A stretch of DNA of 64,000 bases from Curvibacter sp. GWA2_63_95 (GTDB taxonomy: Bacteria > Pseudomonadota > Gammaproteobacteria > Burkholderiales > Burkholderiaceae_C), in contig MGPB01000030.1 of assembly GCA_001795455.1 (NCBI GenBank), positions 62,001 through 126,000 on the forward strand. Direction: 5' to 3'. Shown here one piece after another: positions 45,921-62,411 of the stretch (its first letter is position 1; every line of letters begins with the position of its first letter). A model generated the notes under the pieces. That model made no database searches, was not told where the DNA came from, and worked only from the letters and a program-made list of their open reading frames with translations. Made by a program: the position numbers and the translations under genes.

Positions 45921-46937
45921 ATGCTCAATAATTTATCAATCCTAATCACTGGTGGTACCGGCTCTTTTGGAAAAGCGTTTGTAGAAACGGTTTTGGAAAA
46001 ATACCCAGATGTCAGGCGTTTAGTCATCTTTAGTCGGGATGAGCTCAAACAGTTCGAGATGGCTCAGAAATTCCCTGTTTCCAAGTACCCTGCGCTGCGG
46101 TACTTTATTGGGGATGTAAGGGACTCGGATCGATTGCGTCGTGCCATGGAGGGAATTAATGTTGTTATCCATGCAGCAGCACTCAAGCAGGTTCCTGCCG
46201 CGGAATATAACCCCTTCGAATGTATCAAAACTAACGTTTTGGGTGCTCAGAATGTTATTGAGGCATGTCTCGATATGGGAGTTAGGCGCGTCGTCGCACT
46301 GTCAACGGATAAAGCGGCGGCGCCAATCAATTTGTACGGTGCGACCAAGTTGTGCTCTGATAAATTGTTTACTGCCGCAAATAACATCAAGGGTGGCCGT
46401 GATTTGCGCTTTAGCGTGGTGAGGTATGGCAACGTCATGGGTAGTCGTGGGTCTGTAATTCCTTTTTTTTTAGGAAAGCGAAAAACTGGGGTTTTGCCAA
46501 TAACAGACCCCGCGATGACCCGCTTCAACATTAGCTTGCAGGACGGAGTGGATATGGTCTTGTGGGCTTTGGAGCGAGCCCAAGGTGGCGAGATTTTTGT
46601 TCCAAAAATTCCTAGTTATAGGATTACCGATGTAGCTAATGCCATTGGGCCAGAGTGTGAGCATGCCATTGTGGGTATTCGTCCCGGTGAAAAAATTCAT
46701 GAAGAAATGATTACAGCAAGTGATAGCTTCAACACTGTTGATCTTGGCAAGTACTTTGCTATATTGCCATCTGCCGGATCGCATTCAGTGGAAACTTATT
46801 GTGCAGAATTTGGTGGTAAACCGGTTGAGCCTGGGTATGCCTATGACAGTGGTAGTAACACTGACTTTCTTACGGTAGAACAATTGCGTGAATTGATCGC
46901 TAGAGATTTTTCGGGCGCAGATTCGGAAAGCATATGA
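45921..46937 (+). CDS. pseB: UDP-GlcNAc 4,6-dehydratase (inverting), PseB-like
   Basis: ILITGGTGSFGKAFVETVLEKYPDVRRLVIFSRDELKQFEM...HAAALKQVPAAEYNPFE...STDKAAAPINLYGATK. Confidence 0.95.
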   Translation: MLNNLSILITGGTGSFGKAFVETVLEKYPDVRRLVIFSRDELKQFEMAQKFPVSKYPALRYFIGDVRDSDRLRRAMEGINVVIHAAALKQVPAAEYNPFECIKTNVLGAQNVIEACLDMGVRRVVALSTDKAAAPINLYGATKLCSDKLFTAANNIKGGRDLRFSVVRYGNVMGSRGSVIPFFLGKRKTGVLPITDPAMTRFNISLQDGVDMVLWALERAQGGEIFVPKIPSYRITDVANAIGPECEHAIVGIRPGEKIHEEMITASDSFNTVDLGKYFAILPSAGSHSVETYCAEFGGKPVEPGYAYDSGSNTDFLTVEQLRELIARDFSGADSESI

Positions 46938-48091
46938 TTCCATATGGTCGTCAGAGTATTAATCAAGAGGATGTTGATGCTGTAGTCCGAGTGTTGCAAT
47001 CGGATTATTTAACTCAGGGGCCAACTGTTCCTCTGTTTGAAGATTCCGTTATTGCGCATTGTGGCGCACGTCACGCTTTAGCCGTTAATAGTGCCACAAG
47101 TGCTTTGCATATTGCATGTTTGGCGCTGGGCCTTGGTCCTGGTGATTGGCTTTGGACGACCCCGATTACCTTTGTTGCCTCCGCAAATTGTGCTCTCTAT
47201 TGTGGCGCGCAAGTCAGCTTTGTTGACATTGATCCGCTGACATATAACTTGTGTCCCGATGCGTTGGAGCAAAAGCTTCTACGGGCGAAGATTGAAAATC
47301 GCCTCCCTAAGATTGTTGTGCCTGTACATCTGTGCGGTCAACCTTGCGATATGCAGCGCATCCATGCATTAGCGCAAAAGTTTGGTTTCAAAATCATAGA
47401 AGATGCCTCGCATGCCATCGGGGGTAAATACTTGGGAGAGCCGATTGGCAATTGTCGTTTTAGCGATATCACCGTCTTTAGTTTCCATCCAGTAAAGATC
47501 ATTACGACGGCGGAGGGTGGTATGGTTGTTACCAATTCGAGCGAATTGTTCGAATCAATGGGCCTTTTGCGTAGTCACGGCATTACACGGGATGTTCGAC
47601 AAATGAGCCATGCGCCTGATGGGCCTTGGTATTACCAACAAGTGGCGTTGGGTTTCAACTATCGGATGACTGACTTGCAAGCCGCTTTGGGGGTTAGTCA
47701 GATGCACCGATTGGAGGGATTCGTTGCACAACGCCATGCCATTGCAAATCGCTATGAACAACTCCTGTCGGAATTACCTGTAACACGGCCATGGCAACAT
47801 CCTGATGGTTACTCGGGATTGCATTTGTATGTGATTCGGTTGCAAACCGAGCGCCTTATGAGTTCGCAGCGTGAAATATTCGAGGTGCTTCGTGATAAGG
47901 GTGTTGGCGTTAATTTGCATTATATCCCTGTGCACACTCAGCCCTATTATGCGCGCATGGGTTTTCTTTCGGAGGATTATCCCCAGGCAATGCGCTATTA
48001 CGCGCAGGCAATTAGCTTGCCAATGTATCCAGGTCTGACGCAGGCTATGCAAGAACAGGTAGTCGATGCACTCTCTGGTGTTCTGCAATGA
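46934..48091 (+). CDS. pseC: UDP-4-amino-4,6-dideoxy-altrosamine transaminase, PseC-like
   Basis: MIPYGRQSINQEDVDAVVRVLQSDYLTQGPTVPLFE...EDASHAIGGKY...TVFSFHPVKIITTAEGGM. Confidence 0.95.
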   Translation: MIPYGRQSINQEDVDAVVRVLQSDYLTQGPTVPLFEDSVIAHCGARHALAVNSATSALHIACLALGLGPGDWLWTTPITFVASANCALYCGAQVSFVDIDPLTYNLCPDALEQKLLRAKIENRLPKIVVPVHLCGQPCDMQRIHALAQKFGFKIIEDASHAIGGKYLGEPIGNCRFSDITVFSFHPVKIITTAEGGMVVTNSSELFESMGLLRSHGITRDVRQMSHAPDGPWYYQQVALGFNYRMTDLQAALGVSQMHRLEGFVAQRHAIANRYEQLLSELPVTRPWQHPDGYSGLHLYVIRLQTERLMSSQREIFEVLRDKGVGVNLHYIPVHTQPYYARMGFLSEDYPQAMRYYAQAISLPMYPGLTQAMQEQVVDALSGVLQ

Positions 48092-48957
48092 TGCGTTTGG
48101 CGCTTGGCACCGTTCAGTTTGGGCTGCCATATGGTGTCGCGAACCAATCAGGACAGGTGAGTCGCGAGCAGTCTCAGGCAATGTTGGGCCTCGCCATCGC
48201 CAGCAAAATTGATACCTTGGACACAGCTATCGCCTATGGCGAAAGTGAAGTTCGTTTGGGTGCGCTGGGGATCAATGACTTTAACGCCATAACCAAACTC
48301 CCTGCCTTGCCTGAAGGACTGACTGATGTTGCCTCATGGGTTCAGAGGCAGGTAGAAGCATCCATGTCTCGACTTGGGGTGTCGGTTTTGTATGGATTGC
48401 TTCTGCATAGGTCTGAGCAATTGCTTGGCCCCGATGGTCGAGCTCTGTACAAAGCACTCTACGAATTGAAAGATAGCGGATTGGTGCAAAAAATCGGCAT
48501 CTCTGTGTATTCTCCGCGCGAGCTCGACGCAATTTGCCCATTGTTTTCCCTTGACTTGGTGCAGGCGCCCTTCAATTTGGTCGATCGGCGCTTGCAAAGC
48601 TCTGGGTGGCTGCGGCGACTCAAAGCTGAAGGGGTGGAGGTCCATACGCGGTCGACGTTTCTGCAGGGGCTGCTCTTGATGGGACAAGACGAGCGCCCCT
48701 CCAAGTTCATGGCATGGTCGGATTTGTGGGCGACTTGGGATAAATGGCTTGTCGAGCGCAATGTTGCCCCTGTCCATGCTTGTTTGGGCTTTGTGTTGGG
48801 GCATCCAGAAATAGAACGCGTAGTAGTCGGTGCCGATAGCTCGATGCAATTGACACAACTGATCGATGCAGCTTGTGCACCCAAGCTCTCGGAGTTTCCA
48901 AACCTTGACTGTATCGATGAGTTACTGATCAACCCTGCGCGGTGGCCACTGCTCTGA
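48088..48957 (+). CDS. aldo/keto reductase
   Basis: LALGTVQFGLPYGVANQSGQVSREQ...DTAIAYGESE...GLLLHRSEQLLG. Confidence 0.9.
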   Translation: MMRLALGTVQFGLPYGVANQSGQVSREQSQAMLGLAIASKIDTLDTAIAYGESEVRLGALGINDFNAITKLPALPEGLTDVASWVQRQVEASMSRLGVSVLYGLLLHRSEQLLGPDGRALYKALYELKDSGLVQKIGISVYSPRELDAICPLFSLDLVQAPFNLVDRRLQSSGWLRRLKAEGVEVHTRSTFLQGLLLMGQDERPSKFMAWSDLWATWDKWLVERNVAPVHACLGFVLGHPEIERVVVGADSSMQLTQLIDAACAPKLSEFPNLDCIDELLINPARWPLL

Positions 48958-48998
48958 ATGAGCCTTACCAAGATATAAATCGACACAAAGGAATCCAA

Positions 48999-50303
48999 AT
49001 GAAAACAGGGCAAGAGCTTTGGCAAAGAGCAAAAAAAGCTATTCCAGGTGGCAACATGCTCCTCTCTAAGAGGGCTGAGATGTTCCTTCCTGACCAATGG
49101 CCTGCTTATTTTAGTAAATCTCAGGGTTGCACGGTCTGGGACCTTGACGGCAATGTTTATACCGACATGTGCATCATGGGGATTGGTACAAATACCCTCG
49201 GCTATGGCCATCCCGAAGTAGATGACGCTGTGCGTAAGACTATTGATGCTGGCAATATGTCGACGTTGAACTGCCCGGAGGAAGTTTATCTCGCAGAGAA
49301 GCTTATTGAGATTCATCCTTGGGCTGAAATGGTGCGACTTGCTCGATCGGGTGGTGAGGCCAACGCAATAGCGATACGTATCGCGCGGGCCGCCTCGGGA
49401 CGTGACAAAGTGGCTGTTTGTGGATACCACGGTTGGCATGACTGGTATCTCTCCGCCAATTTGGGCGACGATGAGCAACTTGCTGGGCATCTACTTCCGG
49501 GGCTTGATCCCAAAGGCGTGCCACAAAGTCTTCGGGGTACGGTTTTTCCCTTTACCTACAACAATTTCCTCGAGTTGGAAGCGCTTATAAATCAGCATGA
49601 TATTGGCGTCATAAAAATGGAAGTCGTTCGGAATTTGGGGCCAGTGGATAATTTCTTACAAAAAGTTCGAAAACTCGCTACTGATCGTGGAATTGTTTTG
49701 ATTTTTGATGAGTGCACGTCTGGGTTTAGGGAGACGTTCGGTGGCCTTCATAAAAAGTACGGTGTGGAGCCTGACATGGCTATGTTTGGTAAGGCCTTGG
49801 GAAACGGGTATGCGATAACAGCAACCATCGGTAAGCGTGAAGTTATGGAGGCAGCTCAATCCACTTTTATAAGTAGCACATTTTGGACAGAGCGAATCGG
49901 GCCTACTGCTGCGCTTAAGACGCTTGAGGTGATGGAGAGAACCAAATCTTGGGAGACGATTACACAGACCGGCTTATCGATTAGAGGGCAATGGCAGCAA
50001 CTCGCGGACAAATACAAACTCAGTATTGAGCATTGGGGTTTGCCCGCGCTAACGGGTTTTAGTTTTGTTTCAGATAACGCACTTGCATACAAAACATTAT
50101 TGACCCAGGAAATGCTGGCCCGCGGTTATCTTGCCTCAAATAGTGTTTATGTTTGTACATCTCATACGCCTGAAGTCGTGCATGGCTATTTCGATGCACT
50201 TGATTCAGTTTTCGCGCTTATTGCGCGTTGTGAGCAAGGTGAGAATGTTATGAGTCTGCTGAAAGGTCCAGTTTGTCATGCCGGATTTAAGCGACTAAAT
50301 TGA
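48999..50303 (+). CDS. class III aminotransferase (glutamate-1-semialdehyde aminotransferase-like)
   Basis: IPGGNMLLSKRAEMFLPDQWPAYFSKSQGCTVWDLDGNVYTDMCI...DECTSGFRETFGGLHKKYGVEPDMAMFGKALGNGYAI. Confidence 0.92.
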   Translation: MKTGQELWQRAKKAIPGGNMLLSKRAEMFLPDQWPAYFSKSQGCTVWDLDGNVYTDMCIMGIGTNTLGYGHPEVDDAVRKTIDAGNMSTLNCPEEVYLAEKLIEIHPWAEMVRLARSGGEANAIAIRIARAASGRDKVAVCGYHGWHDWYLSANLGDDEQLAGHLLPGLDPKGVPQSLRGTVFPFTYNNFLELEALINQHDIGVIKMEVVRNLGPVDNFLQKVRKLATDRGIVLIFDECTSGFRETFGGLHKKYGVEPDMAMFGKALGNGYAITATIGKREVMEAAQSTFISSTFWTERIGPTAALKTLEVMERTKSWETITQTGLSIRGQWQQLADKYKLSIEHWGLPALTGFSFVSDNALAYKTLLTQEMLARGYLASNSVYVCTSHTPEVVHGYFDALDSVFALIARCEQGENVMSLLKGPVCHAGFKRLN

Positions 50304-50313
50304 TAGCAGTGAG

Positions 50314-51081
50314 GTGTCGAGCATGCGAGTTGTTGCAATTATTCAGGCAAGGATGGGCTCTACTCGTTTGCCGGGTAAAGTTCTGATGCCTTTGTCGGGT
50401 GTGCCTGTGCTCGAGCATGTTGTTCAAAGGGTTCGTGCTTGTGCCACAGTTAATGAAGTAGTGGTTGCGACATCCAACGACGTTACTGACGATGTTTTGG
50501 CTGATTGGTGCAATCGGCACGAAGTTGAAGTCTTTCGTGGTAGTTTGACTGATGTATTAGATCGTTATTACCATTGCGCCGAACGGTACTCAGCTGACGC
50601 AATTGTGAGAATCACCGCAGACTGCCCCGCAGTTGACCCGCTAGTGATCGACGGTGTTGTCTCCGCTTTCCTAGCAGACTCATTTGATCTCTTTTATCTG
50701 GGCGGGGAGTTCCCCGACGGGCTTGATTGCGCAGTTTTCTCAAAGGAAGCGTTATCGCGTGCATGGCGTGAGGCGACGCTGCCTTCCGAGCGTGAGCATG
50801 TAGGCCCCTACATTACCAATCACCCTGAGATATTCAAGATTGGCCAGTTAATCAAGTTTCATGGTTTGTCTCATCATCGTTGGACGCTTGACGAACCGAG
50901 AGACTTAAGCTTTCTTCAGGTAATTTTTTCTCGCCTGAATGCGTCAGGCACCCATATCTTTCATTCGGAAGAGGTTTTGCAACTTCTGCAGCGAGAACCC
51001 GAGATCTTGAATATAAATGGTGGGATTGTGCGCAATGAGGGGCTTTTAAAGTCAGTTGCTGCGGACGGCGAAATGGGATGA
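50314..51081 (+). CDS. SpsF-like cytidylyltransferase family protein
   Basis: RVVAIIQARMGSTRLPGKVLMPLSGVPVLEHVVQR...VRITADCPAVDPLVID. Confidence 0.9.
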   Translation: MSSMRVVAIIQARMGSTRLPGKVLMPLSGVPVLEHVVQRVRACATVNEVVVATSNDVTDDVLADWCNRHEVEVFRGSLTDVLDRYYHCAERYSADAIVRITADCPAVDPLVIDGVVSAFLADSFDLFYLGGEFPDGLDCAVFSKEALSRAWREATLPSEREHVGPYITNHPEIFKIGQLIKFHGLSHHRWTLDEPRDLSFLQVIFSRLNASGTHIFHSEEVLQLLQREPEILNINGGIVRNEGLLKSVAADGEMG

Positions 51082-52088
51082 ATGCACCTCGGAAGATAGC
51101 GTTTCGTGTTGATGAGTCCTCTCAAGTTGGGTTTGGTCACATGTCCCGCTGTCGCACGTTGGCGCATGCGCTGTGGCTGGCCGGTTGCGAAGTACAGTTT
51201 TATTGCGCCAAGATTTCAAACTCTACACGCCGTGAGCTTGAGGTTTCGGGTTTTCATGTTTTCCTTTTGCAAACTGAGCAAGAGTTTTTGGATGCGGACC
51301 TATCAGAAAGTGTAGTAGTCGTTGATGGCTATCAATTTGGACCGGAGTTGGGGGGCGCTATGAAGAAGCGAGCGTGGAAGACGGTCTATCTTGATGATTA
51401 CAGGGGTGTTAATTACGACTGCGATGTTTTGATTTGTAATAACGAAGGCTTGATGAGGAGCCAGTTATCCACGCCAGAGTACTGCAAAGTTTTTCTTGGG
51501 GGGCGCTATGTCCTCATAAAGCCGGAGGTTTTACGTGCCGCAAGATGTTTGCGGCACGGTGCGCGGATTTCCAAGTCGGTGATGCTGGTAGCGGGGGGCA
51601 CCAACCAGAAGGCATGGGTCATCAGAATGCTGGGCTTGCTTGGCAAGCTAGAGCCTCGGGCCGTAATCTGGGTTTTGACAGGGCGTCGACTTTCTGCCGT
51701 CAATGTTCAAAGAGCTTCTGGATTGCCGTTGAAGAAGCTGCGGTTTTTTTCGAAACAATCCGCTACTCAGATGATTCGCCGTTATCAGAGGGCTGGTTAC
51801 CTTGTTGCTCCGGCCAGTACGGTGTTGCTTGAGGCGTTTGCAGCCGGTATTCCAGCCATCTCGGGGTGGATCGCGCAGAACCAGCAAACCTCACTCAATG
51901 CTTTTGAGGCACAGGGGTTGATCGCAAACATTGGGGATCTTCGTGTACCGGAGCTTCGTGAGCTGCGTGCCGCACGCTCTTCTGTACTCAAGTCAGGAGT
52001 TAAAATGGCGCGACTCCAGGAAGCATTCATCAGAGAGTCTTTGGCCGGTACGGCTGAGATTGTCCAAGAGCTGCTTGGTGAGTGTTGA
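51078..52088 (+). CDS. pseG: UDP-2,4-diacetamido-2,4,6-trideoxy-beta-L-altropyranose hydrolase, PseG-like
   Basis: IAFRVDESSQVGFGHMSRCRTLAHAL...VVVDGYQFG...APASTVLLEAFAAGIPAI. Confidence 0.88.
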   Translation: MNAPRKIAFRVDESSQVGFGHMSRCRTLAHALWLAGCEVQFYCAKISNSTRRELEVSGFHVFLLQTEQEFLDADLSESVVVVDGYQFGPELGGAMKKRAWKTVYLDDYRGVNYDCDVLICNNEGLMRSQLSTPEYCKVFLGGRYVLIKPEVLRAARCLRHGARISKSVMLVAGGTNQKAWVIRMLGLLGKLEPRAVIWVLTGRRLSAVNVQRASGLPLKKLRFFSKQSATQMIRRYQRAGYLVAPASTVLLEAFAAGIPAISGWIAQNQQTSLNAFEAQGLIANIGDLRVPELRELRAARSSVLKSGVKMARLQEAFIRESLAGTAEIVQELLGEC

Positions 52089-52239: not shown

Positions 52240-53262
52240 ATGAGCATCCCTGTAAAAAGAAACCGCCCTTTCATCATTGCCGAGCTATCGGGTAACCACA
52301 ATCGCTCATTGGATTTGGCATTGGAGTTGATTCGCACCGCGGCCAAGGCAGGGGCTTCCGCTATTAAGCTGCAAACCTACACCCCAGATTGTCTTACCGT
52401 CCGCGGGGCATTCACTATTACTGAAGCAAGTTCGCCGTGGTTTGGTCGTGAGCTGTATGACCTCTATGAGGAGGCGAATACGCCTTGGGAATGGCACAGA
52501 GAGTTGTTTGAAGCGGCGCAAGCCGAAGGCTTGCCATGTTTCTCTACGCCCTTTAGTACCAAAGCGGTGGAATTTCTCGAAACGTTAGGCAACCCGATAT
52601 ACAAAGTTGCCTCGTTCGAAATCAACCACACACCGTTGTTGCAGTGCGTCGCACAAACGGGCAAGCCGGTCATCATGTCTACGGGGGGGGCAACAGTCTC
52701 CGAAATTGATGAGGCCGTGAACACCTTGCGCAAGCATGGCTGCAATGACTTGACCTTACTCAAGTGCACCAGTGCCTACCCGGCTGATCCCAAGGAGATC
52801 AATTTGCGGACCATTCCCCACATGGCCGCGCTTTTTGGTTGCGATGTAGGGCTGTCAGACCATACCTTGGGGATCGGGGTGTCGGTCGCTTCGATCGGTT
52901 TTGGTGTAACGTGCATTGAAAAGCACATGACCAAGTCGCGCGCAGACGGCGGGGTCGACTCCTCATTCTCCATGGAGCCTGATGAGTTTGCGATGCTGGT
53001 CACCGAAAGTAACCGTGCTTTTGACGCCTTGGGTCGCGTTTACTATGGTTTGGAAGAAACGGAGGGCAAGGTCAGTGCGGGCAAGCGCTCCATTTATGCC
53101 GCTCGAGATATTGCACTCGGAGATGTGTTTACCGAAGAAAATATTCGCGTGATCCGTCCCGGCTATGGCTTGCATCCACGGTATTTCCATGCGCTGCTGG
53201 GGCAGCGCGCCGAGCGTGCCATCGCCTTGGGCGAGCCTTTAGGTGTGCAGGACATCCAGTGA
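52240..53262 (+). CDS. pseI: pseudaminic acid synthase, PseI/NeuB-like
   Basis: FIIAELSGNHNRSLDLALELIRTAAKAGASAIKLQTYTPDCLT...SAF-like C-terminal domain. Confidence 0.95.
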   Translation: MSIPVKRNRPFIIAELSGNHNRSLDLALELIRTAAKAGASAIKLQTYTPDCLTVRGAFTITEASSPWFGRELYDLYEEANTPWEWHRELFEAAQAEGLPCFSTPFSTKAVEFLETLGNPIYKVASFEINHTPLLQCVAQTGKPVIMSTGGATVSEIDEAVNTLRKHGCNDLTLLKCTSAYPADPKEINLRTIPHMAALFGCDVGLSDHTLGIGVSVASIGFGVTCIEKHMTKSRADGGVDSSFSMEPDEFAMLVTESNRAFDALGRVYYGLEETEGKVSAGKRSIYAARDIALGDVFTEENIRVIRPGYGLHPRYFHALLGQRAERAIALGEPLGVQDIQ

Positions 53263-53831
53263 GTGCTTTCGCGAATCCTCTTTACACTTTCAAGAACTTC
53301 ACGGAACTGACGAAGCACGAGTCCGAAGAGGTACTGCACGGCCGAAATGACGCGGAAGTGCGACGGTGGATGACATCGGATATGGTCATTACCGCCGACG
53401 ATCATAGGCGCTTCATGCGTGGGCTGAAGGACAACCCGCGCGCGATTTATGTGAGGATTGCGCGGGCAGGGTGTTTTGCTGGCGTGTATTCACTGAATGA
53501 CTTGGCAGACGGTTCTGGCCTCGGAGGGTTTTGGGTCACGGCTCAGACGCGTGAACGGTTTTTACCTTTGAACGTGGTCTTTCAGGGAATGGACTACATG
53601 TTTCGGGCATCGGGAGTCGAGCGCATTTACGGTTTTCAGAAACTTGACAACTTGAGCGCAATGAGGCTCAACGGTTTGTTGGGGCTGTCAGTAAAAGAAT
53701 CTAGCACTGCGGGTGCCGAAGGCATGCAACAGATTGAAATTACCAAGCAGCAGTGGCAGCAAAAGACGGCACAAGACGCCAAGCTGCTCAAGCTGATGAA
53801 CAGAATGGAAACCCTCAATGGAACAACTTAA
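53259..53831 (+). CDS. GNAT-like acetyltransferase (PseH-like)
   Basis: YTFKNFTELTKHESEEVLHGRNDAEVRRWMTSDMVITADDHRRFM...NVVFQGMDYMFRASGVERIYGFQKLDNLSAMRLNGLLG. Confidence 0.75.
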   Translation: MSAFANPLYTFKNFTELTKHESEEVLHGRNDAEVRRWMTSDMVITADDHRRFMRGLKDNPRAIYVRIARAGCFAGVYSLNDLADGSGLGGFWVTAQTRERFLPLNVVFQGMDYMFRASGVERIYGFQKLDNLSAMRLNGLLGLSVKESSTAGAEGMQQIEITKQQWQQKTAQDAKLLKLMNRMETLNGTT

Positions 53832-54054
53832 AAAATATAACGCCGCCTTTGTCGAGATTGTCGGAGTGAGCGAAGACCAACTTCCGGGCCTTGTTTACCA
53901 GGCCACTGCCGGCTGGGACTCTGTGGGGCACATGCAGCTCATGACCCAGCTCGAAGATGTCTTTGGCATTGCCTTGGAGATGGAAGACATCCTAGAGTTC
54001 TCCGGCTACGAAAAGGGCATGGATATTCTGCGCAAGTACGGGGTCGCGCTCTAG
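53818..54054 (+). CDS. acyl carrier protein
   Basis: 78 aa with WDSVGHMQLMTQLEDVF phosphopantetheine-site motif. Confidence 0.9.
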   Translation: MEQLKKYNAAFVEIVGVSEDQLPGLVYQATAGWDSVGHMQLMTQLEDVFGIALEMEDILEFSGYEKGMDILRKYGVAL

Positions 54055-54064
54055 GTTGTAACCA

Positions 54065-54805
54065 GTGTTTTTGAATAAAACAGTTCTGATCACCGGTGCC
54101 AACCGAGGGATTGGCCGGGCCATCGCTGAGGCGTTTGCCCAGGTGGGCGCCGGCCTGATCGTGCACAGCCGCAGCCAGACTGCAGCCTTTGCCGAGGACA
54201 TGCTGGCGCTGGCGGCCCGCTACAAGGTGGCGGTTGAGCATGTGGTCTTTGACATGACGGACACCCCAGGCATGAAGGCCGCCATCAATGCAGCCTTGCC
54301 GCCGAGCCGCAAGATTGATGTGCTGGTCAACAACGCAGGCATCGCCCATGGGGGGCTTTTTCAAATGACGCCGGTGTCGGTGGTGCGCAGCGTGTTCGAC
54401 GTCAACTTCTTTGCGCAACTTGAGTTGACTCAGCTCATGGTGCGCCGCATGAGCCGCCAAAAAGTCGGGGCGATTGTCAACATCGGCTCCATTGCCGGGC
54501 TCGACCTGGCGGCTGGCAATGTGGCTTACGGCGTCTCAAAGGCCGCCTTGATGGCATTCACCCAAACCCTGGCGGCCGAGGTAGGCTCCATGGGGGTGCG
54601 CGTGAATGCGGTGGCGCCGGGGTTGGTCGATACCGAGATGGCGACCCAGATGGAAAAAAAGGCGGGGACTGAGATGATTCAAAACAGTGCCATGAAGCGG
54701 CTGGCAACGGTGGAGGAAATTGCGCAGGTGGTGCTTTTCCTGGCCTCGGACGCTGCCTCATTCGTGAACGGACAAGTCATTCCGGTCAATGGAGGCAGCG
54801 CATGA
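54065..54805 (+). CDS. SDR oxidoreductase (FabG-like); alternative start codon likely
   Basis: VLITGANRGIGRAIAEAFAQVGAGLIVHSR...NIGSIAGLDLAAGNVAYGVSKAALMAF. Confidence 0.92.
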   Translation: MFLNKTVLITGANRGIGRAIAEAFAQVGAGLIVHSRSQTAAFAEDMLALAARYKVAVEHVVFDMTDTPGMKAAINAALPPSRKIDVLVNNAGIAHGGLFQMTPVSVVRSVFDVNFFAQLELTQLMVRRMSRQKVGAIVNIGSIAGLDLAAGNVAYGVSKAALMAFTQTLAAEVGSMGVRVNAVAPGLVDTEMATQMEKKAGTEMIQNSAMKRLATVEEIAQVVLFLASDAASFVNGQVIPVNGGSA

Positions 54806-55647
54806 TGACTCACACCAGCACCCACATCGCAACCGTGCAAGCGCTTGAAAGCATGGCCCGGGAAATGCGCCACGACATTTATCGCATGGGCCTGCAGACT
54901 GGCCTGAACGGCGCGCACTTTGGGGGCGGCTTGTCGCTGGTGGAGATCATGGCGGTGCTCTACCAGTCTGTGATGCGCGTGAACCCGGCGCAGCCGCGCT
55001 GGCCCGAGCGTGACCGTTTTATTTTGAGCAAGGGGCACGGGGCCATGGCGTATTACGCAGCCCTTAAGCAGGTGGGCTTTGTGACAGACGAGGACCTTAT
55101 GACCTTCAAGGGCAACCACACCTTTCTCTATGGCCACCCGTCCATGAACCCCGACAAGGGCATCGAGTTTTCCAGCGGCAGCCTGGGCTTGGGTCTGGCG
55201 TTGGGCGTGGGAACAGCCATGGGCTTGCGCAAGCGCGGTAACCATGCGTCGCGCGTGTTCGTGCTCATGGGCGACGGCGAGTGCGGCGAAGGATCGGTCT
55301 GGGAAAGCGCGGCGTCGGCGGCGCATTTCGGGCTGTCGAACCTGGTGGCCATCATCGACAAAAATGGCCTGCAGTATGACGGCCCGACCAAGGATGTGCT
55401 GAACATGGATGGCATGGCCGAAAAATGGGAAAGCTTTGGCTGGCAGGCGCGCACCGTTGACGGCCACAACCTGGCTGAGCTGCTGGACGCTTTTGACAAC
55501 CTGGGGGGCAAGCCCACAGTCATTGTGGCCAACACCGTCAAGGGTAAAGGCGTGTCCTATATGGAAAACAACCCGGCTTGGCACCACAACCGATTGACCC
55601 AGGCTCAATTTGACGAATTGACCGCAGCCAAGGCGGTGAACCCATGA
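54802..55647 (+). CDS. transketolase N-terminal (TPP-binding) subunit
   Basis: RDRFILSKGHGAMAYYAALKQVGF...VLMGDGECGEGSVWESAASAAHFGLSNLVAIIDKNGLQYDG. Confidence 0.93.
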   Translation: MMTHTSTHIATVQALESMAREMRHDIYRMGLQTGLNGAHFGGGLSLVEIMAVLYQSVMRVNPAQPRWPERDRFILSKGHGAMAYYAALKQVGFVTDEDLMTFKGNHTFLYGHPSMNPDKGIEFSSGSLGLGLALGVGTAMGLRKRGNHASRVFVLMGDGECGEGSVWESAASAAHFGLSNLVAIIDKNGLQYDGPTKDVLNMDGMAEKWESFGWQARTVDGHNLAELLDAFDNLGGKPTVIVANTVKGKGVSYMENNPAWHHNRLTQAQFDELTAAKAVNP

Positions 55648-56621
55648 GTATTTTTACTCGCGCCAATATCCGGACCTGGTCGATGCTTGGCTCTGCCGGC
55701 ACCTTTGGCCAGGCCGCCATGGGCCTGCCTGCGATCAACCCTGAAACTCTGATCGTCACCGCCGATTTGCGCAATTTCTCCGGGCTGGACCGTTTTGCCG
55801 CGGCCCATCCCGACCGGCTCATCAATGTGGGCATTGCCGAGCAAAACATGGTGGGCTTGGCTGCAGGGCTCTGCAACGAAGGCTTCAATGTCTTCGCCAC
55901 CACTTACGCCACCTTTGCGGCAGCGCGCAGCGCCGATCCTGTGCGGGTGAACATGGGTTATATGGGGCTGGGCGTCAAGCTCGTTGGCCTGGGAGCTGGT
56001 TTTTCGGTGGGTGTACTGGGACCGACGCACATCAGCCTGGAGGACATTGCGTTCATGCGCGCGATTCCTAACATGGCCGTGATCTCGCCAGCCGACTGCA
56101 CCGAGACGGTCAAGGCTGTGCAGGCGCTGGTCAACTACCCGGGGCCCGCTTATTTGCGACTGGGCGGGAATGTGCCGCATCCGGTGGTGTTTGCGGAAGA
56201 CTATGAGTTTTGCATTGGCAAAGCCATCCGCCTGCGTGGCGGTGAGGACATCACCATCGTGGCCACCGGCCCGGTCGTCTACGAGTCACTGCAGGCAGCC
56301 AAACTGTTAGAAGCGCTGGGCCTGCGGGTGGGTGTGGTCAACATGCACACCATCAAGCCGCTGGACACCGAGATGTTGCGCGAGGTCTACGCTTCAGCTC
56401 GTTTGGTCGTGACGGTCGAGGAGCACAGCATTCTGGGTGGCCTGGGTGGTGCTGTTGCAGAGCACAAGTGCCAATTTGCGGCAACGCCGCCGCAGCTCAT
56501 CATTGGCGTTCGCGATTACTTTCCCCATGCGGGCGATTACCGGCACTTGCTGTCCGAAACCGGGCTAACTGCCCCTCAGATCGCCACGCAGATCCAGTCG
56601 CGATGGAGCACGGTGGCGTGA
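55644..56621 (+). CDS. transketolase C-terminal subunit
   Basis: AAHPDRLINVGIAEQNMVGLAAGLCNEGFNVFATTYATFAAARSADPVRV...TVEEHSILGGLGGAVAE. Confidence 0.93.
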   Translation: MSIFTRANIRTWSMLGSAGTFGQAAMGLPAINPETLIVTADLRNFSGLDRFAAAHPDRLINVGIAEQNMVGLAAGLCNEGFNVFATTYATFAAARSADPVRVNMGYMGLGVKLVGLGAGFSVGVLGPTHISLEDIAFMRAIPNMAVISPADCTETVKAVQALVNYPGPAYLRLGGNVPHPVVFAEDYEFCIGKAIRLRGGEDITIVATGPVVYESLQAAKLLEALGLRVGVVNMHTIKPLDTEMLREVYASARLVVTVEEHSILGGLGGAVAEHKCQFAATPPQLIIGVRDYFPHAGDYRHLLSETGLTAPQIATQIQSRWSTVA

Positions 56622-58036
56622 CACTCTTTCCCGTGGACGCGTTTCCCGCCGATCGGCTCGCCGCGCTGGACGATTCGGGTCAGGTGCTGTCCTATGGGGA
56701 CTTGGCGCAGATTTCAATGCGCCTAGCGTCTTCGGTTCGAGCCAGAACGGTGGCCTTGGTCCTGGTCCGCAACACCTTGGGCTGCGTGGCGACCATCGTG
56801 GCCTTGATCAAGCAGGGCGTCGTTCCCATCTTGCTCGACGCCAGCGCCGCCCCAGCGACCATTGCGCTGCACAGAGAGCGCTATCAACCCGACGTACTGG
56901 TGCTGCCAAGCGACCTGCAAGCGCAGTATCCAGACAACCCTTGCCTGTTGCGCATGCTTGACTATGCGGTGCTCGCGTCAGAGAACCAAGCCAGCCGCTG
57001 CCCGACTCACCCCGACCTGGCCTTGCTGATTAGCACCTCGGGCAGCACGGGCAGTCCCAAGCTGGTTCGGCAGAGCCGGGGTAATGTGCTGTCGAACGCC
57101 CAGGCAATTGCGAGCTACTTGAACATTGGCCCCGGCGATCGCCCGGTCACCAGTTTGCCGCTGCACTACACCTACGGTTTTTCCGTGCTGAGCAGCCATT
57201 TGCAAGTAGGCGCCACCTTGTTGGTGACCGACCGCTCGGTCATGGAGAAACCTTTCTGGACGTTCATCAAAGAGGCTGGTGCGACCTCTCTGGCGGGCGT
57301 GCCCTACACCTACCAAATGCTCAAGCGGCTGGGTTTCCTTCGAGCGAATCCCGGCTCGCTGCACACCCTGACCCAGGCGGGCGGCAAGCTTAGCGACGCC
57401 CTGGTCCGCGAATTTGCCGAGTTCGCGGCGCGCAGCGGCATTGATTTTTACGTGATGTACGGACAGACCGAGGCGACTGCGCGGATGAGCTATGTGCCAG
57501 CAGGAAGGGCGCTGGATAAGGCCGGCAGCATCGGCGTGGCCATACCGGGCGGTGAGCTGTTCTTGGTGGACTCGGAGGGGGGCGAAATCAACGCCGCCGA
57601 CGTGCAGGGCGAGTTGGGCTACCGAGGCCCCAATGTGACCATGGGCTATGCCGAGCAGCGCGCCGATCTGTCCACGGGCGATGAGCGCCGGGGCACCTTA
57701 CTCACAGGCGACCTGGCCCTGCGTGATGCCGACGGGTATTACTACATTACCGGGCGCCTGAGCCGTATCGCCAAGCTGTTTGGCAAGCGCGTGAGTTTGG
57801 ACGATCTGGAGCAGATCTGCCTTGGGCTGGTGACGGAGGTGGCCTGCACCGGCGCCGAAGACCGGGTCACGGTGTGGGTGACGGATTGTGAGCATACCGC
57901 TGCACTGTCTGGCTTGTTGGCTGAGCGCACGGCCATTCACGCTTCCGCCTATCAGGTGCGGCTGATTGACAGCTTGCCACGAACACCGGTTGGCAAAACA
58001 GACTACCGGCTGCTTTCAAGCAGGATGCAGGCATGA
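56603..58036 (+). CDS. AMP-binding (acyl/aminoacyl-adenylating) enzyme
   Basis: LLISTSGSTGSPKLVRQSRGNV, MYGQTEATARMSYVP, TGDLALRDADGYYYITGRLSRIAKLFGKRVSLDDLE; start reset to 56603. Confidence 0.9.
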   Translation: MEHGGVTLFPVDAFPADRLAALDDSGQVLSYGDLAQISMRLASSVRARTVALVLVRNTLGCVATIVALIKQGVVPILLDASAAPATIALHRERYQPDVLVLPSDLQAQYPDNPCLLRMLDYAVLASENQASRCPTHPDLALLISTSGSTGSPKLVRQSRGNVLSNAQAIASYLNIGPGDRPVTSLPLHYTYGFSVLSSHLQVGATLLVTDRSVMEKPFWTFIKEAGATSLAGVPYTYQMLKRLGFLRANPGSLHTLTQAGGKLSDALVREFAEFAARSGIDFYVMYGQTEATARMSYVPAGRALDKAGSIGVAIPGGELFLVDSEGGEINAADVQGELGYRGPNVTMGYAEQRADLSTGDERRGTLLTGDLALRDADGYYYITGRLSRIAKLFGKRVSLDDLEQICLGLVTEVACTGAEDRVTVWVTDCEHTAALSGLLAERTAIHASAYQVRLIDSLPRTPVGKTDYRLLSSRMQA

Positions 58037-59148
58037 TGGATTTGACGGCTTGGCATGCACTCGCACCTTATGCCTTGGATCACAGCGCCAAACATGCCAT
58101 GCTCACGCGCGGCTTACTTGAACTTACGGCGCACCATGCGACACAGTGCGAGCCTTATCGCCGGATGCTCGAGGCTCAGGGTTTTCGGCCTGAGGCGGTC
58201 CATTCGCCTGCCGATATTCCCTTCTTACCAGTCCGCTTATTCAAGCAGTTGGATCTGCGCAGTGTGACGCAGGAGGACGTGGTCAAAACCATGACATCCA
58301 GCGGCACTTCGGGTCAGACCCCGTCCCGGATATTCTTGGACCGCAGCACGGCCGCAAATCAAACCAAAGCTTTGACGCGCATCGTCTCAGCCGTGACGGG
58401 TGCGCAACGCATGCCCATGATCGTGGTGGATAGTCCTTCCGTCATCAAAGACCGTGCCTTGTTTTCGGCTCGGGGTGCGGGTATTTTGGGGTTTTCGATT
58501 TTCGGTCGCGACAGAATTTTTGCACTTGACGACAACATGCAATTGGACGTCGACATGGTGGCCCAGTTCCTGAATAAACATGTGGGGAGCCCCGTCTTCA
58601 TTTTTGGCTTCACCTTCATGGTTTGGCAATACCTGTACAAAGCACTGGTCAGTAGCGGTAGGCAACTCGACCTTGGGCAAGCCATCTTGGTTCACGGTGG
58701 CGGTTGGAAGACGCTGGTGAATGAGTCTGTTTCTTCAACCGTATTTCGTGAGCGTTTACAAGCGGTCTGCGGCATCAGCCGAGTACATGACTACTACGGT
58801 ATGGTGGAGCAGACAGGGTCCATCTACATCGAATGTGAGCATGGCCATCTGCATGCATCGGTTTATTCGGACATCATTGTGAGGCGGCACGTGGACTTTT
58901 CCGTGGCTGACGTGGGTGAATCTGGCTTGATTGAGGTGGTGTCGGTTTTGCCGGGGAGCTACCCGGGACACGCCCTGTTGACAGAAGACGAAGGGATGGT
59001 CCTCGGCGAGGATGATTGTCCATGCGGTCGCATGGGCAAGTACTTTAAGGTTCACGGACGCATTAAGAGCGCGGAGCTAAGGGGCTGCAGCGACACGTAT
59101 GCCGCTGGCCCAAATGAAGCACCCCGAGAGTTGTCAAATGGCTATTGA
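58033..59148 (+). CDS. LuxE-like acyl-protein synthetase family protein
   Basis: IPFLPVRLFKQLDLRSV...MTSSGTSGQTPSRIFLDRSTAANQTKAL...HDYYGMVEQTGSIYIECEHGHLH. Confidence 0.88.
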   Translation: MMDLTAWHALAPYALDHSAKHAMLTRGLLELTAHHATQCEPYRRMLEAQGFRPEAVHSPADIPFLPVRLFKQLDLRSVTQEDVVKTMTSSGTSGQTPSRIFLDRSTAANQTKALTRIVSAVTGAQRMPMIVVDSPSVIKDRALFSARGAGILGFSIFGRDRIFALDDNMQLDVDMVAQFLNKHVGSPVFIFGFTFMVWQYLYKALVSSGRQLDLGQAILVHGGGWKTLVNESVSSTVFRERLQAVCGISRVHDYYGMVEQTGSIYIECEHGHLHASVYSDIIVRRHVDFSVADVGESGLIEVVSVLPGSYPGHALLTEDEGMVLGEDDCPCGRMGKYFKVHGRIKSAELRGCSDTYAAGPNEAPRELSNGY

Positions 59149-60346
59149 CAAAGTGGTTGAACTCCTGGCTCCGTTGGGTGCAGACTTGCTGGCTGTCCAG
59201 CACACTCGTGCACTGCCACCGTTTTCGCCTCAAGTTTTGAGTTTTCTTGGTGATTTGTCGGATCTTCTGCGTTCCGATTCACGGGTTCGATTGCTGCCTG
59301 ATCTTTACGCATTCGGATTTTGGTGTAGACGCACCTCCATAGAGGCTATGGGGCGCAGTTACGCTGACAACCATTCTCGTCTTGGTCGAGGGGTCATTTT
59401 TCATGTAGGCCCTGCCAATGTACCGGTGAACTTTGCTTATTCCTTGGCAGCAGGTCTACTTGCCGGGAATGCAAATCTGGTTCGTGTTCCTTCGGCTGAC
59501 TTCCCCCAAGTAGCAATCATTGCGCAAACACTGGACACTCTGCTAAAGAAACCTGAGCACCGCGAACTGAGTGATCACATTCGGTTGGTACGCTATGACC
59601 GAAACTCACATGAGGCTACAGCAAAATTTTCAGAAATCTGCGACGTCCGTGTCATCTGGGGCGGTGATGACACCATTGATGTGATTCGCCGCCATAAATT
59701 GAATGCGCGCGCATTTGACATAACTTTTGCTGATCGATATTCGGTTTGTATCATTGATGCAGAAAACTACCTGCAAACCACCAAGTACTCATCATTAGCG
59801 CAAGCGTTCTACAACGATACATACTTGTTTGACCAAAAAGCCTGTACCGCACCCCATCTGGTACTTTGGCTGGGCAAGACGGACGTAGTTAATCGTGCCC
59901 AAAATGTGTTTTGGGAGAGCCTGCAAGCGTATGTTGAAGAAAAATACACTTTAGATGCTCAATCCGCAGTTACAAAACTGTCTGCGGCCTTGCGATATGC
60001 GGCCTCGCATGAAGGTACTCGTATTTTGCCTTCTAGAGATAATTTAATTACCAGAGTCACTCATCCGGAGCTGGAGGCGGGCATCGAAAATTGGCATTCG
60101 AATTGTGGTTTTTTTGTCGAATGTCATTTGTCGAGGATTGAAGAAGTCCTACCCATCATCACTCGAAAATATCAAACACTGTCATATATAGGTTTGAGCG
60201 GTGACTGTTTGCGACAGCTCTTAATTAAGGCAAGAAGCCTTGGGGTCGATCGTATTGTCCCAGTCGGTCGGACACTAGAGTTTTCACTGGAATGGGATGG
60301 ATATGATTTAATTCGCACTATGAGTCGATTGATTTATCGTGCTTAA
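59138..60346 (+). CDS. LuxC-like acyl-CoA/acyl reductase
   Basis: GVIFHVGPANVPVNFAYSLAAGLLAGNANLVRVPS...VIWGGDDTIDVIRRHKL...DQKACTAPHLVLW (Cys region); start set at MAIDKVV. Confidence 0.88.
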   Translation: MAIDKVVELLAPLGADLLAVQHTRALPPFSPQVLSFLGDLSDLLRSDSRVRLLPDLYAFGFWCRRTSIEAMGRSYADNHSRLGRGVIFHVGPANVPVNFAYSLAAGLLAGNANLVRVPSADFPQVAIIAQTLDTLLKKPEHRELSDHIRLVRYDRNSHEATAKFSEICDVRVIWGGDDTIDVIRRHKLNARAFDITFADRYSVCIIDAENYLQTTKYSSLAQAFYNDTYLFDQKACTAPHLVLWLGKTDVVNRAQNVFWESLQAYVEEKYTLDAQSAVTKLSAALRYAASHEGTRILPSRDNLITRVTHPELEAGIENWHSNCGFFVECHLSRIEEVLPIITRKYQTLSYIGLSGDCLRQLLIKARSLGVDRIVPVGRTLEFSLEWDGYDLIRTMSRLIYRA

Positions 60347-60348
60347 CT

Positions 60349-61704
60349 ATGAAAATAACTCATTTTAGTAACTCATTCATGTCGATTTCATCGCAAGGAG
60401 AGACTTTTGTCTGTGATCCTTGGGTTGGTAAGGCAAATGCGAGTGGATGGCAGAGCTTTCCGGAATTCTCAAGCATTGAGTTGGCAGAGTATCTTGCAGA
60501 TGCAAAGTGGATTTATGTTTCACATTTGCATGACGATCACTTCCATCCCGAGACACTCAAAGTGCACGGTTTATTGGATCGGGAATTTATAATCAAGCGC
60601 TTTAGTCAGCCGATATTGCGAGAGCGACTCAAGCGCTTGGGCGTAACACGTATCCGCGAAATTGATGCTTTCGAGGTAGTAAAAATAGGCCCGTTTGAAA
60701 TATCTATCTTTCCCCAATTGTCTAGCAACTCATCTGGACTTGAGGATGATGTGAATTTTGATCTGGATACATCGATTGCTATCAAAGCGGATGGGAAAGT
60801 TTTCTTTAATCAAGTCGACAATCCACTTTCATTTGAAGACTTGAAAAATGTACACGCCTACATCAGTCAAAAAATGGGGGCTATTGATGTCGCATGTCTG
60901 ATGAGCGGTGCCGCAAGTGAGTATCCACATTTGTTTCTTGGGGTTGATCACGCGAATGAAAAGAAGCGAATAGTGGATCGATCATTGTTGGATCTTGCGC
61001 AGTGGCTTAGTTTGCTTAACCCGCAGTACTATTTTCCAGCTGGAGGTACTTATCTCATCCCGGGGTGGTTGAGTCAGTTTGCTGCTAATGTGGCCCAACC
61101 AACTTACCCCGAGATAGTCAATTTTCTTAGCGACAAGCGGCTTTCTACACAGTGTATTTCCTTGGAAGGAGGCCGTTTTCTCGAATGGGATTCAGAAAGT
61201 CAAAAAGTGGAGGTGGGGTCATCGATCTCTCCTGTGGTTTTTGAGAGGGAAGTGGCAACCGAAATCCATAAAGTGGATCCGTATGTTTACGAGCACTTTG
61301 ATGCCCCGGAGTGGTCAGTACTTACCAAATACCTCGACCAAGCTAGATCCAACTGGGAGGAGAAGGTAGTCCGGAAGCACTATGAAATCACGCAGTCCAT
61401 CATTTTTGAAGTGTATCGTCCTCTTTCTCTAAAGGATGGCAAGTCCGATGTATCCAAGCATTTGGGGACATTCCGTATTCATGCGGCCAAAACACCAGAT
61501 CGCGGTGTATTGTCCATACATATAGATCAAAGGGCACTGTTTGCATGTGTCGTTCGCAAATTGGTGTGGAATGGTGTTTTGGGGGCGCTATGCCTTTATG
61601 AAAGAACGCCTAATCGCCACTATCCAACGGATTTCTTTTCCTTAAACTTTCTAACAATTACCGATCAGCAGGTCGAGCAATTAGTTGATTCGATCGAGGC
61701 TTAG
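60349..61704 (+). CDS. metallo-beta-lactamase-fold protein, possibly CMP-NeuAc hydroxylase (CMAH)-like without a Rieske domain
   Basis: MKITHFSNSFMSISSQGETFVCDPW...VSHLHDDHFHPETL; GAASEYPHLFLGVDHANEKKRIVDRSLLDLAQWLSLLNPQYYFPAGG. Confidence 0.65.
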   Translation: MKITHFSNSFMSISSQGETFVCDPWVGKANASGWQSFPEFSSIELAEYLADAKWIYVSHLHDDHFHPETLKVHGLLDREFIIKRFSQPILRERLKRLGVTRIREIDAFEVVKIGPFEISIFPQLSSNSSGLEDDVNFDLDTSIAIKADGKVFFNQVDNPLSFEDLKNVHAYISQKMGAIDVACLMSGAASEYPHLFLGVDHANEKKRIVDRSLLDLAQWLSLLNPQYYFPAGGTYLIPGWLSQFAANVAQPTYPEIVNFLSDKRLSTQCISLEGGRFLEWDSESQKVEVGSSISPVVFEREVATEIHKVDPYVYEHFDAPEWSVLTKYLDQARSNWEEKVVRKHYEITQSIIFEVYRPLSLKDGKSDVSKHLGTFRIHAAKTPDRGVLSIHIDQRALFACVVRKLVWNGVLGALCLYERTPNRHYPTDFFSLNFLTITDQQVEQLVDSIEA

Positions 61705-61727: not shown

Positions 61728-62411
61728 ATGGATAAGAATAATTTTGATGTTCGGGCCGCCTACGAGTCAGCCAAACAGACCGATACGGTTGAAATGAATG
61801 GTCGATACCATTTGGGAATGCGGGAAATTCAAACGTTCAAGCTTCTAGCCCAAGAGTCCGGAATCGCGTTGCCGCGTAACACGGCATTTCTGGATCTTGG
61901 TTGCGCTGACCGTTATTTGGAGAAAGCGTGTGTTGCAGAGGGATGGTTGTACACGGGGCTTGACTATAGCAACCTGAATTTTGAGTTCGATACGTTTCCT
62001 TTGGCAGACGCCTCTATTGACGTAGCTGCAAGTCTGGCGGTGATTGAGCACTTGCGCGATCCTGCTAAATTTCTATCGGAAATATACAGATGCTTAAAGC
62101 CTGGTGGGGTTGTCTATTTATCGACACCCAACTTTCGGCTGGACTGGAAAAACTTTTATAACGATCCAACGCATGTCCGTCCGTACACGCCAGAATCCAT
62201 TGAGCAATTGCTAAAGCTGCAAGGGTATGATTCAGTTAAAAGTTATCCGGGCCTCAGATGCAAGGATATAGCTTGGTATCGTGGAAAACACCGATTTCTT
62301 AAAGCCTATTACCTTCTGCCATTTCGCTATGACACGCGATTGCCGGTGCCAAGTTTCCTCAAAGGGCACGCTAGGTCAGTTTTTGCTCTAGGGCGTAAGC
62401 AATTGACCTAG
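61728..62411 (+). CDS. class I SAM-dependent methyltransferase
   Basis: AFLDLGCADRYLEKACVAEGWLYTGLDYS...SLAVIEHLRDPAKFLSEIYRCLKPGGVVYLSTPN. Confidence 0.9.
   Translation: MDKNNFDVRAAYESAKQTDTVEMNGRYHLGMREIQTFKLLAQESGIALPRNTAFLDLGCADRYLEKACVAEGWLYTGLDYSNLNFEFDTFPLADASIDVAASLAVIEHLRDPAKFLSEIYRCLKPGGVVYLSTPNFRLDWKNFYNDPTHVRPYTPESIEQLLKLQGYDSVKSYPGLRCKDIAWYRGKHRFLKAYYLLPFRYDTRLPVPSFLKGHARSVFALGRKQLT

Follow-up and report, generated by a model that had tools for sequence, protein, structure and literature searches.

What a set of genes resembling the acyl-reducing enzymes of bioluminescence, together with a split transketolase, contributes to a pseudaminic acid (Pse) locus is the question raised by a 64,000 nt stretch of DNA (the window) from Curvibacter sp. 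GWA2_63_95 (assembly GCA_001795455.1, contig MGPB01000030.1, positions 62,001–126,000, forward strand). The seven genes of this module are collinear, have intact reading frames and lie on the + strand. They encode an acyl carrier protein (ACP), a FabG-like short-chain dehydrogenase/reductase (SDR), the two halves of a split transketolase (TktN and TktC), an AMP-forming acid-ACP ligase, a LuxE-like acyl-protein synthetase and a LuxC-like acyl reductase (Table 1). A first-pass annotation of the sequence had proposed that the module makes an unusual ACP-bound acyl or aldehyde building block for a nonulosonic acid, and a dedicated block of this kind, attached to the nonulosonic acid precursor, stands as the best reading, with a chemistry that we infer. 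In the form favoured here, for which the balance is about even, a dedicated pathway would build a short polyhydroxylated acyl group on ACP and attach it to the amino sugar from which Pse is made.

The module forms part of a tightly packed unit. Overlaps were found at PseI/PseH-like (4 nt), PseH-like/ACP (14 nt), SDR/TktN (4 nt), TktN/TktC (4 nt), TktC/ligase (19 nt), ligase/LuxE (4 nt) and LuxE/LuxC (11 nt), and the 10 nt between ACP and the SDR is the sole gap within it. A longer LuxC starting at 59099 is possible. The gene positions, families and overlap lengths given by the first-pass annotation were all borne out by Pfam, NCBIfam and the coordinates, and the single translationally coupled unit that it described is supported.

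That the module immediately follows an authentic set of pse genes was confirmed by the scores of PseB, PseC and PseI, which exceed the NCBIfam equivalog cut-offs. PseG and the PseH-like GNAT fall below theirs and are homologous but divergent, and these two are the enzymes of the set that meet the N4-acyl group. The PseH-like protein is also without the Q/R-x-x-G-x-G/A coenzyme A (CoA) loop of canonical PseH, as seen in the one sequence. It could be argued that the module modifies another polysaccharide sugar or an O-linked substituent rather than Pse, as most relatives of the module are found outside pse loci and the window locus goes on into further sugar and glycosyltransferase genes. However, the module gene ends overlap those of PseI and the PseH-like gene, the divergent enzymes are precisely those that meet the N4-acyl group, and Acetobacterium bakii has the same pairing of module and pse genes, though its PseG passes the cut-off. 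A different target is therefore considered distinctly improbable for this locus.

The catalytic residues of the core enzymes were retained throughout the relatives examined. The cysteine in the GCS motif of LuxE (Cys352) was conserved in 83 of 83 sequences and the LuxC cysteine (Cys236) in 78 of 78, and both align with the solved LuxE and LuxC (PDB 7XC6). The phosphopantetheine serine of ACP (66/66) and the core lysine of the ligase (74/74) were likewise invariant, and the SDR has the conserved catalytic residues Ser142, Tyr155 and Lys159. The nearest solved relatives of the ligase are small-diacid CoA ligases. Although LuxC and LuxE are homologous by sequence to the bioluminescence proteins and keep their acyl-cysteines, they score far below the NCBIfam lux equivalog cut-offs (LuxE, 56.6 against 550 bits; LuxC, 42.3 against 750 bits), and neither a luciferase nor LuxD was found in the window. 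In some other loci a thioesterase gene is located between those for the ligase and LuxE, the place that LuxD occupies in the logic of bioluminescence.

The bioluminescence LuxE and LuxC work on long-chain acyl groups, and for Dickeya and the Enterobacteriaceae the published authors themselves proposed that genes of this kind supply a glycan with fatty acids or fatty aldehydes, giving a 'liposugar' (PMC4875605, PMC7575072, PMC7874193). This reading was considered and ranked low. It leaves the transketolase pair without a role, the window unit includes no ketoacyl-ACP synthase (KAS) or chain-elongation gene, the Lux proteins fall far short of the long-chain lux models and the nearest solved ligases use small diacids. 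The linking sugar in Aeromonas piscicola AH-3, a Pse derivative, has a mass of 376.14 Da (PMC7874193), and the mass calculated for Pse5Ac7Ac with one acetyl exchanged for C4H6O3 (e.g. dihydroxybutanoyl) is 376.148, which isomers would match equally well. From this match, which needs no fatty chain, we infer that the AH-3 sugar is Pse with a C4H6O3 acyl group replacing acetyl. A lipid route is thus improbable.

The transketolase pair keeps the residues for binding thiamine diphosphate (ThDP) and Mg, the donor histidines and the catalytic residues, namely the equivalents of H26, H66, H100, D155, N185, H261, E411 and H473 in Escherichia coli TktA, with the catalytic glutamate retained as Glu66 in TktC. 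The phosphate site is altered, with R358, H461 and R520 of TktA replaced in the window protein by A18, G117 and G175, and the residue that contacts the C2 hydroxyl, D469, replaced by L125. TktA S385 could not be placed in the alignment. Replacement of the H461, D469 and R520 equivalents is found across the TktN/TktC family, and the Carboxydothermus split transketolase keeps all three. A housekeeping transketolase was rejected as an identity for the pair, since the genome has three other Transket_pyr proteins and the pair forms a family of its own.

In the C2 pathways of naphthyridinomycin and quinocarcin (NapB/NapD type), a glycolyl unit from a ketose is loaded onto an ACP by a route that involves oxidation and a lipoyl domain. 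The position of the pair beside a stand-alone ACP would suit an analogous reaction, with LuxE and LuxC acting elsewhere. When ten proteins were scanned against Pfam no lipoyl domain was found, ACP having only a PP-binding domain, and this route would leave LuxE, LuxC and the ligase, the constant core of the module, without a role. Glycolyl loading is accordingly rated quite unlikely. Because the ketol-donor residues are kept, the phosphate site is lost and a lipoyl domain was not found, ketol transfer onto an aldehyde made by LuxC would, on residue comparisons, fit better.

The genome neighbourhood survey proposed in the first-pass annotation was run, and the LuxC-LuxE-Tkt-ACP set recurs. A LuxE scan of genome contigs gave 516 relatives, and the best 80 were fetched and combined with a locus from the same genus (L005) to give 81 loci. 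LuxC and the ligase were each present in 79, ACP in 73 and TktN/TktC in 41. By their record titles, these loci belong to Bacillota, Bacteroidota, Pseudomonadota, Spirochaetota, Synergistota, Verrucomicrobiota and Gastranaerophilales, and plasmid matches add Deinococcus, Nonomuraea, Ponticoccus and Rhizobium. A separate search of about 1,170 genomes, anchored on TktC, gave six members of at least 439 bits, including the window, with the next-best matches at 335.5 bits or below. The other five loci all have the ACP, ligase, LuxE and LuxC genes beside the transketolase pair, while none of nine next-best split transketolase loci have the core genes adjacent, though one has LuxE and LuxC about 8 kb away. 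Since the set recurs across phyla, the module is more than a chance assembly, and the Curvibacter case is part of a widespread module. The survey does not bear out the tie to Pse made by the first-pass annotation, as most relatives sit in other glycan loci. An independent example of the pairing was found in A. bakii DSM 8239 (L038), where pse genes accompany SDR, TktN, TktC, ACP, ligase, LuxE and LuxC genes.

An acyltransferase gene was found near the core in 40 of the 81 loci, an aminotransferase gene in 39, and one or the other in 52. The aminotransferases would suit a scheme in which the aldehyde is itself the end product, aminated or joined to a sugar chain, and TktN/TktC supply a separate branched or higher-carbon sugar; the GMC oxidoreductase and FabZ-like genes of some transketolase loci could also be read in this way. 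In the window, however, all of the sugar aminotransferases are explained by the pse genes or by the class III partner of the aldo/keto reductase (AKR), and the frequent acyltransferase genes also argue against this scheme, which is judged unlikely.

Although the first-pass annotation treated the module as one entity, it appears to consist of two blocks that are exchanged separately. Distance matrices correlate within the set LuxE, LuxC, ligase and ACP (r=0.34–0.78) and within the set SDR, TktN and TktC (r=0.40–0.79), but hardly between the two (r=0.03–0.16), and SDR-TktN-TktC therefore looks, from these comparisons, like an exchangeable cassette, with ACP-ligase-LuxE-LuxC as the constant core to which it is joined. 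An acetolactate-synthase-like ThDP enzyme was found in none of the 41 transketolase loci and in 13 of the 40 others (Fisher p = 3e-5, phylogeny not corrected), and the loci with this enzyme mostly also carry a NeuB-like synthase. The third-position GC content differs sharply between SDR-TktN-TktC-ligase (0.73–0.78) and LuxC (0.42), as would suit a mosaic. The acetolactate-synthase-like and NeuB-like genes, often with a FabZ-like gene, take the place of the transketolase pair near the core (e.g. L012:4256–12251), and similar loci are L016, L023, L040, L046, L048, L050, L053, L069 and L082, many of them from gut or rumen bacteria.

In the pathway favoured here, the AMP-ligase would load a small acid, perhaps a dicarboxylic one, onto ACP. 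LuxE, with its acyl cysteine in place, would activate a carboxylate and hand it to the LuxC cysteine, and LuxC would reduce it to an aldehyde. TktN/TktC, predicted from their ThDP and donor residues to be a ketol transferase, would then add a C2 hydroxyacetyl unit to the aldehyde, and the SDR would reduce the new ketone. The PseH-like GNAT would take the acyl group off ACP and attach it to the UDP-sugar at its 4-amino group, after which PseG, PseI and PseF would lead to a CMP-pseudaminic acid whose 7-N-acyl group is modified and which is destined for a surface polysaccharide. The core may run with varied cassettes, SDR-Tkt here, the acetolactate-synthase-like and NeuB-like pair elsewhere, and none in Aeromonas and Deinococcus. 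More tentatively, and with the balance somewhat against it, a general bacterial route to glycan side groups can be envisaged. A lux-type reductase would generate an aldehyde, perhaps on a chain still bound to an ACP, and a dedicated non-phosphate transketolase (elsewhere the acetolactate-synthase-like enzyme with the NeuB-like synthase) would lengthen it by two carbons to give polyhydroxy acyl groups.

Several points weigh against the pathway as drawn. Other secondary split transketolases are likewise without the H461 and D469 equivalents, and roughly half of the module members retain R358. As 41 of 42 other secondary split transketolases have a basic residue at the R520 position, its loss is, by alignment, the sole feature specific to the module family. 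LuxE/LuxC could reduce a finished acyl chain rather than make the transketolase acceptor, and the coevolution of the SDR, but not of LuxE/LuxC, with the transketolase is compatible with either order of steps. The argument from the PseH-like protein depends on a single sequence, and the recurrence and coevolution figures are uncorrected for phylogeny and are based on the 80 best LuxE relatives plus one. In the openly searchable literature, which excludes subscription papers, no substrate, intermediate, product or enzymology was found for any member.

The first-pass annotation had also allowed that the set might prove to be an already characterised pathway. The exact set is in print (PMC4522980, PMC7575072), as is the set without transketolase genes (PMC7874193, PMC4875605), but none has been characterised. 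In Dickeya zeae the same gene set is found between fliA and fliC and was first called unlikely to be flagella-related (PMC4522980) and later described as possible flagellin 'liposugar' genes (PMC7575072; see also PMC6206727). When gene lists rather than sequences were compared, the luxC-luxE-fadD-tktA-tktB-fabG-acpP content matches, and it too is beside an acyltransferase and a sugar aminotransferase. The Dickeya genes differ in including a VioA-type aminotransferase and a maltose O-acetyltransferase-type acyltransferase and in being part of a flagellar locus, whereas the window module has a PseH-like GNAT, is in a pse polysaccharide locus and is not between fliA and fliC.

The set without transketolase genes is found in Group II flagellin glycosylation islands (FGI) of Aeromonas (PMC7874193) and partly in enterobacterial islands (PMC4875605). 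As in the window, the Aeromonas islands combine pse genes with genes for ACP, a 3-oxoacyl-ACP reductase/SDR, an AMP-dependent synthetase, LuxE and LuxC (PMC7874193), but no transketolase pair is listed, and they concern polar flagella and include maf-2. The A. bakii locus is closer in content (AKR, class III aminotransferase, PseI, PseG, SDR, TktN, TktC, ACP, ligase, LuxE and LuxC), though it is from a Firmicute, the gene order is changed and a different gene, acyltransferase-like by appearance (c16), replaces the PseH-like one.

In Shewanella oneidensis, sfmABCDE, which includes NeuB-like, ThDP enzyme and SDR genes, is needed for a Pse-linked flagellin modification (PMC3765264). The combination of a ThDP enzyme and an SDR is shared with the window, but the former is of the acetolactate-synthase type and accompanied by the NeuB-like protein, and no LuxE, LuxC, ACP or AMP-ligase is named in the operon. 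The 236 Da moiety there (C9, no nitrogen) is suggestive, but SfmA may serve as PseI, and it is not used as proof.

Precedents are known from other systems. Pseudomonas syringae uses an ACP, a reductase and VioB for N-hydroxybutyryl-viosamine (PMC3927599). The likeness lies in an ACP-dependent N-hydroxyacyl group, there for a flagellin amino sugar, but the acyl group comes from a KAS III and a reductase rather than from a ligase, LuxE, LuxC and transketolase (PMC3927599). For a dihydroxyhexanoyl group, Flavobacterium psychrophilum has an ACP and an acyltransferase (PMC6519341), and 7-N-(3-hydroxybutanoyl)-Pse is cited for Acinetobacter baumannii K93 in PMC10320297. The gene content itself is thus not new. 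What is new, as far as the openly searchable literature shows, is the logic of the module, its division into two blocks, the changed transketolase site and the fact that a polysaccharide locus pairs it with Pse.

Serotype, flagellin recognition and phage binding are determined by the N-acyl groups that nonulosonic acids and other amino sugars carry. If the proposal is true, genes annotated as 'fatty acid' or 'luciferase-related' in several phyla would make up a modular pathway that forms carbon-carbon bonds to give polyhydroxy acyl groups outside the reach of fatty acid synthesis and amino acid chemistry. It would also add a ketol transferase acting on non-phosphorylated aldehydes, explain unassigned flagellin sugar masses and make glycan structure predictable from genomes.

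Table 1. Genes of the module and its neighbours in the window (positions are those of the window)
Feature	Position	Strand	Family and remarks
PseB, UDP-GlcNAc 4,6-dehydratase (inverting)	45921..46937	+	TIGR03589, 522 bits (cut-off 408)
PseC aminotransferase	46934..48091	+	TIGR03588, 560 bits (cut-off 424)
AKR-like gene of pse locus	48088..48957	+	KidO-like NF011432, 143 bits, below cut-off
Class III (GSA-type) aminotransferase	48942..50303	+	PRK06209 family, 240 bits, below cut-off; start uncertain
PseF-like cytidylyltransferase	50314..51081	+	KdsB-type models, best 71 bits, below cut-off; locus position
PseG-like UDP-sugar hydrolase	51078..52088	+	TIGR03590, 121 bits, below cut-off (153.6)
PseI, pseudaminic acid synthase	52240..53262	+	TIGR03586, 451 bits (cut-off 340)
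Divergent PseH-like GNAT	53259..53831	+	TIGR03585, 51 bits, below cut-off (93)
ACP	53818..54054	+	PF00550 (PP-binding); phosphopantetheine Ser35 in WDSVGHM
FabG-like SDR	54065..54805	+	adh_short_C2 (Pfam and NCBIfam); proposed reducer of the ketone made by TktN/TktC
TktN, ThDP-binding half of split transketolase	54802..55647	+	Transketolase_N PF00456, 148 bits
TktC, pyrimidine-binding half of split transketolase	55644..56621	+	Transket_pyr PF02779 and Transketolase_C PF02780
AMP-forming acid-ACP ligase	56603..58036	+	AMP-binding PF00501, 162 bits
LuxE-like acyl-protein synthetase	58033..59148	+	PF04443, 179 bits; acyl Cys352
LuxC-like acyl reductase	59138..60346	+	PF05893, 112 bits; Cys236
Metallo-beta-lactamase (MBL)-fold protein	60349..61704	+	Lactamase_B_3, slightly below cut-off; also behind LuxC in L008
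S-adenosylmethionine (SAM) methyltransferase	61728..62411	+	PF13489; same place in L008

The unit continues past LuxC, with the MBL-fold gene starting 3 nt after the LuxC stop and followed by the methyltransferase gene. Both occupy corresponding positions in L008, the Comamonadaceae contig that is the closest relative and has a LuxE that is 85% identical. The MBL-fold protein could hydroxylate the acyl group, and the SAM methyltransferase possibly O-methylates the product. The former weakly resembles the MBL domain of CmlA, a diiron hydroxylase (E=0.012), and a Rieske-domain protein and haloarchaeal MBL proteins are among its distant relatives on plasmids; the phylum search found relatives only in its own genome.

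Further downstream, a GDP-mannose dehydratase-like gene, an ABC transporter, methyltransferases, glycosyltransferases, a sugar transferase and a PglF/WbpM-like protein were read from the sequence. Flagellin, which the first-pass annotation had named alongside surface glycans, was considered as the target and set back as unlikely. No match to the Maf family (PF01973) was found in the genome, so that the maf-2 flagellin glycosyltransferase of the Aeromonas Group II islands has no counterpart here, and the flagellin genes are on a different contig (C11) from the module (C30). Since the locus also continues into polysaccharide genes, the modified sugar more likely belongs to a surface polysaccharide than to flagellin.

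Within the pse genes, the AKR and class III aminotransferase genes (48088–50303) form a pair that is also found in A. bakii (L038:2–2125). Directly upstream of the pse genes, a 666-aa protein (43745–45745) looks from its sequence like an NAD-dependent epimerase/reductase fused to an SDR and is, judged by its position, outside the module.

Other neighbours of the core vary. An L-lactate-dehydrogenase-like gene was found in 18 of the 81 loci (e.g. L012:12241–13227), typically right behind LuxC and with or without the transketolase pair. In the same-genus genome G032 (L005:3–5990), the module adjoins an apparent type I secretion system and a long repeat protein, which suggests a glycosylated secreted protein. 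A plasmid of Rhizobium anhuiense T24 (L163:2179–14362) carries in one stretch genes for the transketolase pair, a hexapeptide-type acyltransferase, ACP, ligase, a glycosyltransferase, DegT, LuxE, LuxC, SDR, a GMC oxidoreductase and FabZ, and a GMC-like oxidoreductase and a FabZ-like gene are also found in L005 and L148.

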